NCBI GenBank assembly: GCA_009693175.1
Contig: SHXT01000001.1
Location: 46,518-110,517, forward strand
Direction of reading: 5' to 3'
DNA length: 64,000 nt
From: Candidatus Methylopumilus sp.
GTDB lineage: Bacteria > Pseudomonadota > Gammaproteobacteria > Burkholderiales > Methylophilaceae
Part shown: positions 4,913 through 54,221 of the stretch, piece after piece
Layout: every line of letters starts with the position of its first letter
Numbering within the stretch: position 1 is the stretch's first letter
The notes under the pieces: generated by a model
Told to the model about the DNA's origin: nothing
Database searches by the model: none
The model's input: the letters and a program-made list of their open reading frames with translations, nothing else
Translations under genes and position numbers: made by a program

Positions 4913-6109
4913 ATGCTCACTATCGAATGGCTTAACTCCGAATCACAAATCTCTCAAGATCTCTGGGATATTTGCTTTCCAGCACCTTATGAAGGTCAAT
5001 GGTGGTATAGATCACTTGAATGCTCACACCTAGAAAAACAATTTACCTTTACTTACGGCCTTGTATCTTTAAATGGCGCACCCATTGCGATAGCGCCTGC
5101 TTTTATCATGGATGTACCTATTGAGCTTGTGATTCCACCTCTCATACTCCCTATTGTCCTTATCATTGGTAAAGTGATTCCATCCTTTCTATATCAGCGC
5201 ACTTTTTTTATAGGGAGTGTTTGTTCTGATGAAGGGCGTATTGGTATCAATCCTAAAATATTAACTAACAATACAGTCACACAAGATGAAATATTTCTTT
5301 GTATTGAAGAGGCTGCTGAAAAACAAGCCGGTAAGTACAACGCCCCCATGTTGGTATGGAAAGATTCCCCTGACACATTTAATAAAACACTCACAAATCT
5401 TTCTAAAACTAAGGGTTTGTTTCCTCTGGTAAGTTTCCCATCTGCACTTGTAACGCTTCAAGGAAATAATTCTAACGATTACTTTAGCTCGCTAAAGACA
5501 TCGAGACGATATCAATTACGTAAAAAATTAAAAAAAGCTATCCTTGCTCCACTTGAAGTGAGTATTGTCCATTTGCCTGACAATCAAACAATTCATCATC
5601 TTTATCGATTATTCTTAAAAACTTACTTAAAAGGTAAAACTAAATTTGAGGAACTAACACCTGAATTCTTCGAATTTATTTCACGTGAAAAGGAAGCACA
5701 CTTTATTATTTTAAGACATCAAGCTTCTCTTGAGATTGTAGCCTTTGTGCTTTGTTTTAATTTAAAAGATCACGTGATCAACAAATTTATTGGTATTGAT
5801 TATGACGCACCTAGAGATTGGTTTTTATACTTTCGCTTATGGATTGAAATAGTTAATTGGTCTTATAAGATAGGTGCTAAAACAATACAAAGCGGTCAAA
5901 CAGCATATACTGCAAAAATTGAAACGGGGCATCAGTTAATACCCTTAACAAATTTCTGTAAACACCGAAATGGTCTTATGCATAAAATTTACAAAAAAGT
6001 AGCAAGCTTAGTCAATTGGGATACACTTGATCAAGACTTGGCGATTTATTTAAAAGCTTATCCTGAAGAAAAGCCAAACATTTATCTATCTAATGAACAG
6101 GAGTCATAA
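4913..6109 (+). CDS. GNAT/FemAB-like acyltransferase, uncharacterised
   Basis: 398 aa; SLKTSRRYQLRKKLKK... and ...YKIGAKTIQSGQTAYTAKIETGHQLIPLTNFCKHRN resemble Acetyltransf_6/FemAB-type folds. Confidence 0.6.
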   Translation: MLTIEWLNSESQISQDLWDICFPAPYEGQWWYRSLECSHLEKQFTFTYGLVSLNGAPIAIAPAFIMDVPIELVIPPLILPIVLIIGKVIPSFLYQRTFFIGSVCSDEGRIGINPKILTNNTVTQDEIFLCIEEAAEKQAGKYNAPMLVWKDSPDTFNKTLTNLSKTKGLFPLVSFPSALVTLQGNNSNDYFSSLKTSRRYQLRKKLKKAILAPLEVSIVHLPDNQTIHHLYRLFLKTYLKGKTKFEELTPEFFEFISREKEAHFIILRHQASLEIVAFVLCFNLKDHVINKFIGIDYDAPRDWFLYFRLWIEIVNWSYKIGAKTIQSGQTAYTAKIETGHQLIPLTNFCKHRNGLMHKIYKKVASLVNWDTLDQDLAIYLKAYPEEKPNIYLSNEQES

Positions 6110-6481: not shown

Positions 6482-7207
6482 ATGAATTTTAGTTTTAAAT
6501 TTATTTTAATAACATTTCATTTAGTTTTGGCGTTTTTCATTTGTACAACTGCAATTTTTTTTCCAAAGAAAATAGTTGGCCTATTAGTTCAGCATTGGGC
6601 AAAACGTCTTTTGCAGATCTTGAGAATTAAAATTACCCTAACTGGAAATCCTTTAGGGCTTTTAAACAAAGAAACATATCTTGTTGTATCAAACCATATT
6701 TCATGGCTTGATATTCCTGTAATCTTCTCTTTAAAGCCAATAACATTTGTATCCACTTCAGATATCAAAACTTGGCCTATTATTGGGATGCTTGCCAAAG
6801 TAACAGGCGCTATCTTTATAGATCGCAAACGTAAATCAACTTTACCTATCGTCATTCAAACCATGAATGAAAAATTTAAAGTCGACAAACAATCATTATG
6901 TATCTTTCCTGAAGGCTCTACGTCTAATGGATACGAAGTTCTTCCTTTTAAGAGTAATTTATTTCAATCTGCATTTCAATCTAACAAATTCATTTTGCCC
7001 TTATCTATTAAATATAAAGAAAATAATACGTTCACAAATCGAGCAAGCTTTCATGGCTCAACTACTTTATTTCAATCCTTTAAAAAAATTGCAGGGTCAA
7101 ACCAAATTGAAGTCATCATTAATATTGGGCATCCCGTAAAACCTGCTCAGTCACGTAAAGACTTGTCACTTAAAATGCAAAAGGCTATTGCTATCAAAAT
7201 TAAATGA
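6482..7207 (+). CDS. 1-acyl-sn-glycerol-3-phosphate acyltransferase (PlsC family)
   Basis: NHISWLD (HX4D) and FPEGSTSNG motifs, plus an N-terminal membrane segment. Confidence 0.88.
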   Translation: MNFSFKFILITFHLVLAFFICTTAIFFPKKIVGLLVQHWAKRLLQILRIKITLTGNPLGLLNKETYLVVSNHISWLDIPVIFSLKPITFVSTSDIKTWPIIGMLAKVTGAIFIDRKRKSTLPIVIQTMNEKFKVDKQSLCIFPEGSTSNGYEVLPFKSNLFQSAFQSNKFILPLSIKYKENNTFTNRASFHGSTTLFQSFKKIAGSNQIEVIINIGHPVKPAQSRKDLSLKMQKAIAIKIK

Positions 7208-13634: not shown

Positions 13635-13730
13635 ATAGCTTAAAAAATTCGTCAATAACATCTTGCTTTCATTCTCGATCGGAGTAAACTTTCGCGATTA
13701 TTTTCATTTCTTTTCACTTAGGATTAAAAA

Positions 13731-14483
13731 ATGGCAGTTAAAAAAGTAACTAAAAAAATGATAGCTAAGAAAAAAGCGCCTGTTAAAAAAGTTGTCGCTA
13801 AGAAAGTGATAGCTAAGAAAAAAGCGCCTGTTAAAAAAGTTGTCGCTAAGAAAGTGATAGCTAAGAAAAAAGCACCTGTTAAAAAAGTTGTCGCTAAGAA
13901 AGTGATAGCTAAGAAAAAAGCACCTGTTAAAAAAGTTGTCACTAAGAAAGTGATAGCTAAGAAAAAAGCACCTGTTAAAAAAGTTGTTGCTTCAAAGAAA
14001 CCAGTTGCTAAAAAACTAGTACCTGTAAAAGTTGTTCCGCTTAAATCTAAAGTATTTAGCTCATCTCAAAAAGGTTTAAAGCAATTTAGGGGTTATGAAG
14101 CTAAAAAAGGTGAAGCTTACATGAGTAAGAGTCAGCTTAATCATTTCCGTACTATCCTAAATGAATGGAAAACAGAGCTAAGCCAAGATATTGATCGCAC
14201 CGTTCATACAATGCAAGATGAGCTTACTTCATATGCAGATCCTAATGATCGAGCAAGCCAAGAATCTGATATGGCACTCGAACTTAGAAATCGTGATCGT
14301 GAACGTAAACTTATTAAAAAAATAGATGATACTTTGAGAAATATGGAAAGTCAGGACTATGGTTACTGTTCTGTTTGTGGGGAAGAAATTGGTCTTAAAC
14401 GTTTAGAAGCGCGTCCTACAGCAAAACTTTGTATTGATTGCAAAACGCTTGATGAGATCCGTGAAAAACAAATGGCTAGCTAA
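13731..14483 (+). CDS. dksA: DksA-family RNA polymerase-binding protein with a lysine-rich repetitive N-terminal extension
   Basis: C-terminal half is canonical DksA (DPNDRASQESD; CSVCGEEIGLKRLEARPTAKLCIDC). N-terminal ~100 aa consists of AKKKAPVKKVVAKKVI repeats. Confidence 0.95.
   Translation: MAVKKVTKKMIAKKKAPVKKVVAKKVIAKKKAPVKKVVAKKVIAKKKAPVKKVVAKKVIAKKKAPVKKVVTKKVIAKKKAPVKKVVASKKPVAKKLVPVKVVPLKSKVFSSSQKGLKQFRGYEAKKGEAYMSKSQLNHFRTILNEWKTELSQDIDRTVHTMQDELTSYADPNDRASQESDMALELRNRDRERKLIKKIDDTLRNMESQDYGYCSVCGEEIGLKRLEARPTAKLCIDCKTLDEIREKQMAS
13764..13991 (+). repeat. 48-bp in-frame tandem repeat, four full copies plus a partial fifth
   Basis: Copies of GCTAAGAAAAAAGC(G/A)CCTGTTAAAAAAGTTGTC(G/A)CTAAGAAAGTGATA begin at 13764, 13812, 13860, 13908 and 13956. 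Confidence 0.97.
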
Positions 14484-14501
14484 TTAATTTTAACTTGTAA
14501 T

Positions 14502-42767: not shown

Positions 42768-44051
42768 ATGATAGCCATGCGTTACTTAAAATTACCAAAA
42801 ATTTTAAAGAAATTAGGTCCTGGCCTTATCACGGGTGCTGCAGATGATGACCCAAGTGGTATTGCGACTTATTCACAAGCAGGCGCTCATCATGGATTTG
42901 GTGTTTTGTGGACCATGTTTTTTACCTATCCACTTATGGTAGGTATCCAAATGGTCAGTGCACGCATTGGACTTGTCACGGGTCGGGGCCTTGCAGAAAA
43001 TATGCGTCGATTTTATCCAAAATATGTCACTTGGCCTTTGGTTATTCTTTTACTTATCGCCAATACCATTAATATTGCAGCGGATTTAGCAGCGATGGCC
43101 GATGCAGTAAAACTTGTAATAGGTGGTCCTCGACATCTTTATGCAGTAGCTTTTGGAATGTGCTGTCTTTTACTTCAAATTTTTATTCCTTATGAACGAT
43201 ATGTGCGCGTTTTAAAATGGCTAACTCTTTCGCTTTTTGCTTATGTTGGAACTGTTTTTGCATCAAACGTTGAATGGAATACAGTGATTAAAGCAACTAT
43301 TTTCCCTAATGCAATATTCACAAATCAATATGCACTTTTAATTGTAGGTATATTTGGTACGACGATTAGCCCTTATCTTTTCTTTTGGCAAGCGGGTCAA
43401 GAAGTTGAAGAAGTTCGAATCAAACATAACACAACATATTTAAAACACAACCCACAGCATTTAGGAGGTCATCTAAGAAGAATTCGAATTGATACAATGA
43501 TAGGTATGGGTTTTTCTAATTTAATCGCTTTTTTTATTATGCTCACTACAGCTGCTACACTTTTTAAAGCAGGCATACATGATATTGAAACATCTGCACA
43601 AGCTGCTGAGGCACTGCGGCCCATCGCAGGTGAGTTTACTTTTATTCTATTTGCTGCGGGTATTATTGGTACTGGTCTTTTAGCAGTGCCGGTCTTGGCA
43701 GGGTCTGCCGCTTATGCTGTTGCCGAACTATTAAAAAAACCTGCGAGCTTAAATTTAAGTTTTCATGCAGCTAAAGACTTTTATGCAGTGATTGCAATTG
43801 CTACTTTGCTTGGTGTTGTTTTAGATTTTAGTGGTATTGATCCAATTAAAGCATTGCTATGGAGCGCTGTCATCAATGGCATTGTGGCAGTTCCTTTAAT
43901 GATTGCACTTATGAATATGGCATCACGCCCAAAAGTAATGCGATCATTTACAATCGGCAAACATGTAAAGCATTTAGGATGGATGGCAACACTTGTCATG
44001 GGTATCGCGGTTGCTACACTTGCTTGGATGACTTTTTTGAAAATAAATTAA
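42768..44051 (+). CDS. NRAMP-family transporter, divergent subgroup
   Basis: KLGPGLITGAADDDPSGIATYSQAG...WPLVILLLIANTINIAADLAAMADAVKLV; multi-TM; the canonical DPGN/MPH motifs are altered. Confidence 0.88.
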   Translation: MIAMRYLKLPKILKKLGPGLITGAADDDPSGIATYSQAGAHHGFGVLWTMFFTYPLMVGIQMVSARIGLVTGRGLAENMRRFYPKYVTWPLVILLLIANTINIAADLAAMADAVKLVIGGPRHLYAVAFGMCCLLLQIFIPYERYVRVLKWLTLSLFAYVGTVFASNVEWNTVIKATIFPNAIFTNQYALLIVGIFGTTISPYLFFWQAGQEVEEVRIKHNTTYLKHNPQHLGGHLRRIRIDTMIGMGFSNLIAFFIMLTTAATLFKAGIHDIETSAQAAEALRPIAGEFTFILFAAGIIGTGLLAVPVLAGSAAYAVAELLKKPASLNLSFHAAKDFYAVIAIATLLGVVLDFSGIDPIKALLWSAVINGIVAVPLMIALMNMASRPKVMRSFTIGKHVKHLGWMATLVMGIAVATLAWMTFLKIN

Positions 44052-50100: not shown

Positions 50101-50217
50101 GGCGGTATGATTTTGGCCACATTTATTGCAACTATTTTTATTCCACTCTTCTTTGTTTGGTTAAGTGGTCATCATGTCCGTCATCATGGTCATGTAGACA
50201 ATGATGATCAAAAATAA
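47104..50217 (+). CDS. RND multidrug efflux permease (HAE1 family, AcrB-like)
   Basis: MSKFFITRPIFAAVISIIIVLAGIAA, FAMVLSIGIVVDDAIVVLENIERLM, GLAAKNAILIVEFA; 1037 aa. Confidence 0.97.
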   Translation: MSKFFITRPIFAAVISIIIVLAGIAAALKLSIAQYPQIAPPTVVITANYPGASAETLSKTVAGPIEEQLSGVEGLLYFNSTTDSSGTLNITATFEIGTNIDQATFNVSNRVNIAAPRLPETVRRTGVVVQKKSNDILLVVMLTSKNKQFDPLYLSNYATLNVLDEIKRLKGVGDANIFGARDYSMRIWLKPDRMAQLGVTTSDIAAAIQSQNAQYAAGKIGQEPSSNDQQLVYTVNAKGRLLDPNQFGNIIIRAGGPNGILYLKDIARIELGAQTYDINTTLNGKPGVGIPIFLQTGANALDTAKSIKEKMAELKGRFPKGMDFEIPYDTSSFVKASMKEVFKTLGEAMLLVVIVVFLFLQNWRATLIPLVAVPISLIGTFAGLFLFGFSINTLTLFAMVLSIGIVVDDAIVVLENIERLMMEEKLSPMKAAIKSMEQVAAAVVAIVLVLCAVFVPVAFMGGIAGELYRQFAVTVAVAVVISGVVALTLTPALCAIILNPNNIQSKFFTKFNNGFYRLTRLYIGIVNKTLHHRLIGGLFFIGIVIASIFLFKITPTSFVPPEDQGYVITAVMLPDGATIGRTSNTTEAVRSAIATDPATTFEFAVNGYDLIGGGNKSSAATMFVRLKDWSDRQTSAGDIVKKLFGIGMMQPDGLAIAFNPPSIRGLGSSGSMEVYIQSRNDTDPLHLFGVVNLFTDALKKEPRLTGVNTFFRPTVPQLFIEVDEAKAMSLGIPISSIYDTLQSTMGSLYVNDFNKSGRTYRVQLQAEAPYRMKPDDLGKVYVRSNAGAMVPLSAVSSINNIIGAEQLERFNGLLSAKVLAGGALGVSSGDVIQLIEKIAKENLPDGYQLAWTGQAFQEKRAGSAAIFAFGFAIIMVFLILAAQFETWILPLAVIMAVPFALTGALIAVMLRGMPNDIYFQIGLITLVGLAAKNAILIVEFASQKIEEGMPVMEAAIEAARLRFRPIVMTSMAFIFGIVPLVVATGAGAAARQSMGTGVFGGMILATFIATIFIPLFFVWLSGHHVRHHGHVDNDDQK

Positions 50218-51610
50218 AATGCTGATACGTTTTATTATCTTAAATCTATTTTTAAGTTTGATAAGCTGTACGCTCGTCGGCCTCGATTACAAACGTCCTG
50301 ATATTGCTATACCCACTAGTTATCACCAAGAAGTGCAACAGAATAACGTCGCTAATAATTTAAATATGTGGTGGAAACTTTATGAGGATCCTATTCTTAA
50401 TGGGCTTATGGACAAAGCGTTAATTACAAATACAGATATCAATGCGGCCATTGCCCGTGTTGAAGAATCAGATGCTTATTTAAAAGAAGTAGGCGCTGCG
50501 TTACTTCCTGAAATCGATCTTAACTCGCAAGCGATAAGAAATAGAGTAACAACAAAAGGCTCGGTACCTTTTATTACAGGACTCAGAAAAGATTACCTTG
50601 TCAAATTAGGTACTTCTTTTGAGCTTGATTTCTGGGGTAAATTACGCCGCGCAAAAGAATCGGCACGTGCTGAATTTGTTGCATCACAGCATTCAAAAGA
50701 TACAGTTGAACTTACCTTACAAAGTTTATTAACAAGTAATTACCTATCACTACGTAGTATCGATTCACAAATTGTTGCCTCAAAAGAAAATGTTCAATAT
50801 CGCGAAGAGGCTTTAGCATTAACTAAAAAACGTTTAGAAAGCGGCCTTGTATCAGCACTTGATCTTCATCAAGCAGAAGCTGCTTTTAATAATCTATCGG
50901 CTCAATTAAGTGATCTTATTCGTCAAAGAGAAATTATCTTTAATCAACTTGTACTTCTTACCGGAGATATGCAGTTAACTATTCCTGAAAATACATTGGA
51001 CGCGCTCAATATGCCGCCCATACCGCCTGCGGGATTGCCTTCATCCCTTTTAGAATCTCGTCCTGATGTGAAAGAAGCTGAACAAATGATGATTGCTGCA
51101 AACGCCAATATTGGCATTGCTAAAGCAGCTCTCTTTCCAACTATTTCACTTACGGCCAACTTAGGCGTTGAAAGTGCAGCGCTTAGCAATTTAAATAAAT
51201 CAGGTTCTAGTATTTGGGCCGGTGGCCTTGGGTTGTCATTACCTATTTTTGATTCGGGTCGTACTCGCGCAAAAATTGATCAAACAACTGCAAAACAAAA
51301 ACAAGTACTCAGTTATTATCAATCTTCTATACAAAATGCTTTTAAAGAAGTAAATAACGCTCTTATTGCTTTAAGAGAATACTCTGAACAAGAAAATGAT
51401 TTAAAGCTTACACAAGAAGCTGCCAAAAAAGCGATGGACATCTCATCTAATCGATATAAAGCTGGTTATTCTGGCTACATTGAATATTTAGATGCTCAAC
51501 GTATATACAATGAAGCATCGATGACTTACATTCAAAAAAGACAATTAAGACTGATTGCAAGTGTTGAATTATTTAAATCACTAGGTGGTGGTTGGCAATC
51601 TCACGATTAA
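50201..51610 (+). CDS. RND efflux outer membrane lipoprotein (NodT/OprM family)
   Basis: LISCTLVGLDYKRPDIAIPTSY; SSLLESRPDVKEAEQMMIAANANIGIAKAALFPTISLTANLG. Confidence 0.95.
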   Translation: MMIKNKMLIRFIILNLFLSLISCTLVGLDYKRPDIAIPTSYHQEVQQNNVANNLNMWWKLYEDPILNGLMDKALITNTDINAAIARVEESDAYLKEVGAALLPEIDLNSQAIRNRVTTKGSVPFITGLRKDYLVKLGTSFELDFWGKLRRAKESARAEFVASQHSKDTVELTLQSLLTSNYLSLRSIDSQIVASKENVQYREEALALTKKRLESGLVSALDLHQAEAAFNNLSAQLSDLIRQREIIFNQLVLLTGDMQLTIPENTLDALNMPPIPPAGLPSSLLESRPDVKEAEQMMIAANANIGIAKAALFPTISLTANLGVESAALSNLNKSGSSIWAGGLGLSLPIFDSGRTRAKIDQTTAKQKQVLSYYQSSIQNAFKEVNNALIALREYSEQENDLKLTQEAAKKAMDISSNRYKAGYSGYIEYLDAQRIYNEASMTYIQKRQLRLIASVELFKSLGGGWQSHD

Positions 51611-51616
51611 TAGGCT

Positions 51617-52762
51617 ATGAATTTATTACATTACGAAGTTCCCCCTACAGCAGGTCTACCAATTTATATCCATGACTTTTTTTCTCAATCAGATTCCTTA
51701 GAAAAAAAATTAGCAGAATTTATTGGCGTTGATACCGTGCAGATTGAATGTTCAGGTACTGTAGCACTTGTGGTTGCACTGATGTCACTTAAAAAATTAA
51801 GTGGGCGTCAAAAGGTAATTATCAGCGCCTATACCTGCCCATGGGTTCCTGTTGCACTGATTCATTGTGGTCTGACACCTATAATCAGCGATGCTAAAAA
51901 AAATCATTTTGACTTTGATTTAAAAAAACTTAAAGCTTCTCTTGGTAAAGATGTGCTTGCAATTATTCCAACACATTTAGGAGGGAAAATTGCTGATGTA
52001 AAAAATATACTACCTATCGCAAAAAAATATAGAGTCTTTGTCATCGAAGATGGTGCTCAAGCGCTTGGTGCAAAAGAAAAAAAACAATCTGTCGGTTTAT
52101 TAGGTGATATAGGTGTGTTTAGTTTAGGTGTGGGCAAAGGCTTAAGTATTTTTGCAGGCGGTGTGATTGTAGCTCACAATAAAAAAATGTTTAGCGATAT
52201 TCAAAAAACAAGTCGAGATCTCATTCCAAATAATTACTTCATGGAATTAAAACGCCTTATTGAACTTATGTTTTACTATATTTTTTATCACCCAAGTCTT
52301 TTGCGTTTTGTATTTGGCATCTCTTTAAGACGTCATTTAAAAAAAGGTAATTTTATTAAAGCAGTAGGGGATGATTGTGCTTTTAAATTTCCGATACATC
52401 GTGTAGGTACCTATCGAAAAAGTATTGGCGCTAGTGCGCTTGATCGATTCAATACCTTTTTACATAAAAACCGTATTAAAGCTACTCAAAGATTAAACCA
52501 ATTAGCAGCGATTCAAAATTTAAAAGTATTGACAACAAATCGTCCTGATGAAACCTGGCCATTTATGATATTAATTTTGCTAAATGAAAAAATACGCAAT
52601 ACGATACTTGCGGATCTATGGCCAAAATCTTTAGGTGTTGGAAGACTTTTTATTAAAAGTATTGCTGATTATGATTATTTGAAACCGTATTTTAAAAAAA
52701 CAAACGCACTAAATGCAAAAGATTTTGCTGAAAGATCTATGATTGTTTCAAATAGCCCCTAG
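51617..52762 (+). CDS. DegT/DnrJ/EryC1/StrS family aminotransferase; likely C-terminally truncated by an in-frame TAG
   Basis: ECSGTVALVVALMSL, SAYTCPWVPVALIHCGLTPIISD, VIEDGAQALGAKEKKQSVGLLGDIGVFSLGVGKGLS (PLP lysine). The same frame stays open after the TAG to a TAA at 52823. Confidence 0.9.
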   Translation: MNLLHYEVPPTAGLPIYIHDFFSQSDSLEKKLAEFIGVDTVQIECSGTVALVVALMSLKKLSGRQKVIISAYTCPWVPVALIHCGLTPIISDAKKNHFDFDLKKLKASLGKDVLAIIPTHLGGKIADVKNILPIAKKYRVFVIEDGAQALGAKEKKQSVGLLGDIGVFSLGVGKGLSIFAGGVIVAHNKKMFSDIQKTSRDLIPNNYFMELKRLIELMFYYIFYHPSLLRFVFGISLRRHLKKGNFIKAVGDDCAFKFPIHRVGTYRKSIGASALDRFNTFLHKNRIKATQRLNQLAAIQNLKVLTTNRPDETWPFMILILLNEKIRNTILADLWPKSLGVGRLFIKSIADYDYLKPYFKKTNALNAKDFAERSMIVSNSP

Positions 52763-52826
52763 CTTGCCAATCAGCGTTTCAATGAAATTTATCGCGTTCT
52801 AGATAAGCACTTGTCAGAAACCTAAT

Positions 52827-54221
52827 TTATTTCTTTAGATTTTTTTTAGCTTTGTCGATAGATTTTTTAACTTGGTCAAATGATGTACCACCAATATGGT
52901 TTCTAGATTTAATCGAGCCTTCTAACGTCAGATGGCTATAAACATCACTTGAAATGACTTTACTAAATTTTTTCAGTTCATCTAATTTTAAATTTGATAA
53001 ATCACATTTCTTTTTAATGGCAGTATTCACCACTTTCGCCACAATCTCATGGGCATCTCTAAATGCAACCCCTTTAACAACAAGATAATCTGCGAGATCT
53101 GTTGCTGTTGCATACCCTTTTAAAGTTGCCTCTTTCATATTTTTTACATTCACTGTAATACCTTTTAACATATCAGCATAAATAGTCAGCACATCTAAAA
53201 TAGTATCAGCTGTATCAAAGAGTGGCTCTTTATCTTCTTGATTATCTTTATTGTAAGCGAGTGGCTGAGCCTTCATAAGCATGAGAAGCCCCATCAAATG
53301 ACCTGTCACTCTTCCTGTTTTGCCTCTCACCAACTCGGGCACATCTGGATTCTTTTTCTGCGGCATAATAGAAGAGCCCGTACAAAATCGATCTGCAATT
53401 TCTACAAATCCGAACATAGGGCTCGACCACATAATAAGTTCTTCAGAAAATCTTGATAGGTGCGTCATTAATAGAGATGCTACAAAAGTAAACTCAATAG
53501 CAAAATCTCTATCAGAGACTGCATCTAAAGAGTTTTCGCAAACACTATCAAATTTAAGTTTTTTAGCCACCTTATTTCTATCAATAGGGTAACTTGTACC
53601 TGCCAATGCAGCTGCGCCTAAAGGTAATTGATTCATTCTTTTTCTTGCATCTTCAAATCGACTAAGATCTCTTTGCAACATTTCATAATAAGCCATTAAA
53701 TGATGGCCAAATGTTATAGGCTGCGCCACTTGGAGATGAGTGAATCCAGGCATAACTGTTTTTTGGTGTTTTTCCGCCAAAGCTACAATTGATGACTGAA
53801 GTGCACTTATTTTTTGAATGATTTCGTCCGTCACAGACCTTAGCCAAAGCCTTAAATCAGTTGCGACCTGATCATTTCTTGATCTTCCTGTGTGTAATTT
53901 TTTACCAGCTTCGCCAATTTTATCAGTCAGTCTTCTTTCAATATTTAAATGCACGTCTTCTAAATCTAAAGACCACTTAAAAGTGCCTGCTAAAATTTCT
54001 TTTTGAATCCCTTGTAATCCATTTCGGATCGCTTTTAAATCTTTTTCCGTGATAATTTTTTGTGCGGCTAACATCTCGGCATGTGCCAAAGAACCTTCAA
54101 TATCAAAAAGACCTAGTTTTTGGTCAAACCCTATAGAAGCTGTAAATCTTTTGACGAGCGTCATCACAGGCTCGTTAAATCTGCCTGACCAATTCACTTT
54201 TTTTGTATTTTTTTTAGCCAT
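52827..54221 (-). CDS. argH: Argininosuccinate lyase
   Basis: [48 protein letters not shown]. Confidence 0.97.

Follow-up and report, generated by a model that had tools for sequence, protein, structure and literature searches.

A probable recent nonsense mutation in an accessory DegT/DnrJ/EryC1-family aminotransferase gene of a small Methylophilaceae genome

An open reading frame for a DegT/DnrJ/EryC1-family aminotransferase is cut short by an in-frame TAG at a codon that specifies tryptophan in its homologues. The gene was probably once full-length and hit by one nonsense substitution, a real and recent decay step that is at least partly inactivating. The ancestral gene would have encoded an aminotransferase of about 402 aa; a single G-to-A substitution would have changed the conserved Trp codon 382 from TGG to TAG, translation would now terminate just before the terminal helix, and the lesion, in an accessory gene, would represent early gene decay. 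The window (the whole 64-kb stretch of DNA that was analysed) is from a draft genome of about 1.2 Mb in 35 contigs, which belongs to the family Methylophilaceae and is 97% complete.

Locus and family assignment

The features of the locus are listed in Table 1. The 381 aa product has the C-terminus ...AERSMIVSNSP, followed directly by the TAG. The same frame then stays open up to a TAA at 52823-52825, and a single base (52826) lies between this codon and the argH stop codon. These coordinates, the product length and the in-frame tail are as given in the initial annotation. A frameshift in place of the stop is excluded, the frame being continuous up to the ancestral TAA.

Table 1. Features of the aminotransferase locus (positions in the window).
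Feature	Position	Strand	Remarks
RND-efflux outer membrane factor, NodT family	50201..51610	+	6 bases upstream of the aminotransferase ORF
Truncated DegT/DnrJ/EryC1-family aminotransferase ORF	51617..52762	+	381 codons + TAG; Pfam PF01041
Premature TAG replacing Trp codon	52760..52762	+	TGG in 27/27 homologues
Untranslated C-terminal helix remnant and ancestral TAA	52763..52825	+	20 codons, LANQRFNEIYRVLDKHLSET
argH, convergent, intact	52827..54221	-	stop codon 52827-52829

The PF01041 profile (DegT_DnrJ_EryC1) matches the product with E = 2.7e-37 and 129.3 bits, above the gathering score of 19.8; the protein is divergent and the match is limited to the N-terminal PLP half of the aminotransferase. 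The candidate lysine K174, in GVGKGL, is kept and is invariant across the alignment, and by analogy with the DegT family it would bind PLP. No NCBIfam equivalog for a named sugar aminotransferase (PseC, LegC, ArnB and others) reaches its cut-off, the best score being 93.9 vs 423.5 bits. A fold search with a weak structure model indicates no more than a sugar-aminotransferase fold class, and the structures superpose poorly. The nearest relatives form a divergent 'EVPPTAGLPL...' subfamily of DegT/DnrJ/EryC1/StrS (PF01041), found here in Methylophilaceae and Bartonella. The window protein has in common with this subfamily the PLP-domain match, the invariant GKGL lysine and a C-terminal S/T-N-S/C-x-W region, but it ends at the conserved Trp without the last residues, and it scores below every NCBIfam equivalog cut-off. 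The complete C-terminal domain with terminal helix of the close homologues is thus absent from the window ORF. The idea that a second copy serves as backup was rejected, since the genome has just one close copy and the other DegT-family matches are weak and distant.

Homologues across the stop and the untranslated tail

Full or partial sequences of 27 homologues were read across the TAG column. Five are from the same genus (66-70% identity to the window protein), 20 from other genera of the family (42-52%) and two from Bartonella (about 41-42%). Trp, encoded by TGG, occupies the column throughout. One residue separates it from an upstream SNS, TNS or TNC, and all chains run 17-30 residues beyond it. 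Their tails share an approximate consensus, W-[LM]-x-[DE]-x-x-F-x-x-I-x-x-[LI]. Because TGG is found in all homologues, the single G-to-A change (TGG to TAG) proposed in the initial annotation is the simplest explanation of the stop. The annotation's reading that the TAG removes the C-terminus of the enzyme is borne out as well: the alignment revealed neither a natural end at SNSP (0 of 27 homologues) nor a tail without similarity. The retention of the Trp and the following segment across genera and in Bartonella indicates constraint on this segment.

The suggested resemblance of the tail to DegT-family C-termini held when aligned. Its residues are identical to those of congener L003 at 11 of 18 positions, and in ungapped alignment with three congeners in turn none of 100,000 shuffles equalled its score; with Bartonella and distant members of the family the tail beats nearly all shuffles. 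Since its scores exceed those of the shuffles, the tail is, as judged from these alignments, not a chance open frame. Its similarity to the congeners is about that of the preceding stretch, if somewhat lower for one of the three (L004). The second codon position differs in only 3 of 18 tail codons. The tail therefore appears to have undergone little or no extra decay, and it has not clearly changed faster than the upstream body. At columns otherwise invariant in 10 sequences only four window-specific changes were counted, the stop included, which suggests little other decay in the remainder of the aminotransferase. Comparisons of congener with congener gave NG86 dN/dS values of about 0.13-0.25, with dS partly saturated, and show constraint. 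The nonsense change is probably recent because neither body nor tail is clearly decayed.

The truncated product is probably inactivated or destabilised. In a structure model of the read-through product (mean pLDDT 62.9) the last strand spans 374-378 and the terminal helix 385-400, with the stop between them; this placement before the terminal helix is a hint, not proof. Activity may persist, as 381 of about 402 residues remain, the catalytic ones among them. A tolerated truncation, i.e. a real nonsense change with a 381 aa enzyme that folds and works without its last helix, is considered unlikely: the PLP domain is complete, the conserved C-terminal motifs are intact through SNS, the loss amounts to only about 5% of the chain and few other lineage-specific changes affect conserved sites, but the Trp and the segment after it are kept in every homologue, other genera and Bartonella included. 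A literature search on truncation effects in DegT enzymes returned nothing useful.

Stop usage and sequence quality

Stop usage and gene disruptions were checked within the 64-kb window. TAG ends 10 of about 55 conserved genes, at about the place expected from the homologues in the complete congener G004 (the alignment reaches the last residue of the homologue in nine of these genes and falls 6 residues short in one). RF1 is encoded in the genome, the tRNAs recovered from the 97% complete assembly include none with a CUA anticodon, and Trp tRNA has the anticodon CCA only. Termination at UAG is relatively leaky when a C follows. Together with a frame open to the ancestral stop and a tail that is not visibly degraded, this context speaks for programmed or leaky read-through, or for local recoding of TAG as an amino acid. 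Both are nevertheless highly improbable given RF1, the tRNA complement, the ten conserved genes terminating at TAG and the finding that none of the 27 homologues has a stop in the TAG column. Recoding or suppression of the TAG was rejected as unsupported, and the read-through option listed in the initial annotation likewise has no support. Very little credence is given to low-frequency read-through yielding short and long forms of the aminotransferase in a streamlined bacterium.

The main technical alternative is an assembly or consensus error, with a Trp codon and an intact gene in the organism itself. It would explain a single-base difference within an otherwise well-conserved gene of a 35-contig draft, and apparent errors are present in the related draft genomes G001 and G012. 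Against it, none of the about 55 conserved window genes has an internal stop when compared with the complete congener; the in-frame stops seen are confined to apparently spurious antisense frames and do not affect real genes. The base error rate therefore looks low, and an error at this codon is distinctly unlikely. Both assembly error and tolerated truncation are ranked below a real and recent nonsense mutation.

Irregularities in related assemblies were recorded separately. One contig of G001 (L099) has several internal deletions, with the NodT end fused to DegT residue 123 and the starts of argH and hemC missing, and resembles assembly collapse rather than biology. The argH gene of G012 (L195) has an in-frame TGA and TAA. 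What looks like a frameshift, at a six-G run around codon 151, divides the DegT orthologue of G124 (L187), a genome of a different genus in the family; this may be an independent second lesion or an error at the homopolymer.

Distribution in the genus and gene loss

The aminotransferase occupies the NodT-argH site in 6 of 16 genomes of the genus, the window's included. In the other 10 (G002, G004, G005, G007, G008, G009, G011, G012, G013 and G015) NodT directly abuts argH and the gene is absent. In a tree of argH DNA the window clusters with two gene-bearing genomes (support 99/97), the label 'gene absent' requires at least three changes, and the genome nearest to the window is only about 85% identical in argH DNA. 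As judged from these genomes the aminotransferase is accessory in the genus, patchily kept and dispensable, and with such patchy retention a nonsense mutation in it is unsurprising.

A FemAB-like gene adjoins DegT in Methylotenera (L033) and in another genome of the family (G019). In the window it lies apart, at 4916-6082, close to an acyltransferase gene (6482-7201). As a functional clue this partner was rejected: it is present in 15 of 16 congeners and so is not kept or lost together with DegT. Elsewhere in the window, an Nramp-family transporter gene (42768-44051) has no match in the compared stretch of G004, and a DksA/TraR-like protein (13730-14490, identified by sequence only) has a lysine/alanine-rich N-terminal repeat that differs from a congener's.

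Since the gene is accessory and absent in most congeners, the lesion is probably real, recent and at least partly inactivating; the change would be present in the living population and the product impaired. Among the options listed in the initial annotation a recent nonsense mutation is preferred, on the conserved Trp, the tail without clear decay and the accessory status of the gene. Gene loss has been described for streamlined Methylophilaceae, and few pseudogenes are reported from streamlined genomes (PMC6794327; PMC10872708). The scarcity of pseudogenes counts against decay as the explanation, yet gene loss combined with few pseudogenes fits a recent lesion.

The case is like an ordinary nonsense-mutation pseudogene of a reduced or streamlined genome in its one stop, premature relative to all homologues, its location in an accessory gene and the clean absence of that gene in congeners. 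It differs in that the remaining frame is intact, so that decay has at most reached an early pseudogene stage. Such an early pseudogene, or truncation, is an ordinary finding and leaves general understanding unchanged; annotators should mark the 381 aa product as truncated. Within one genus, the same site holds an intact gene, a freshly truncated gene or an empty junction in different species, which gives a clear and testable picture of gene loss as it proceeds in a streamlined, freshwater-type methylotroph lineage with a small genome.
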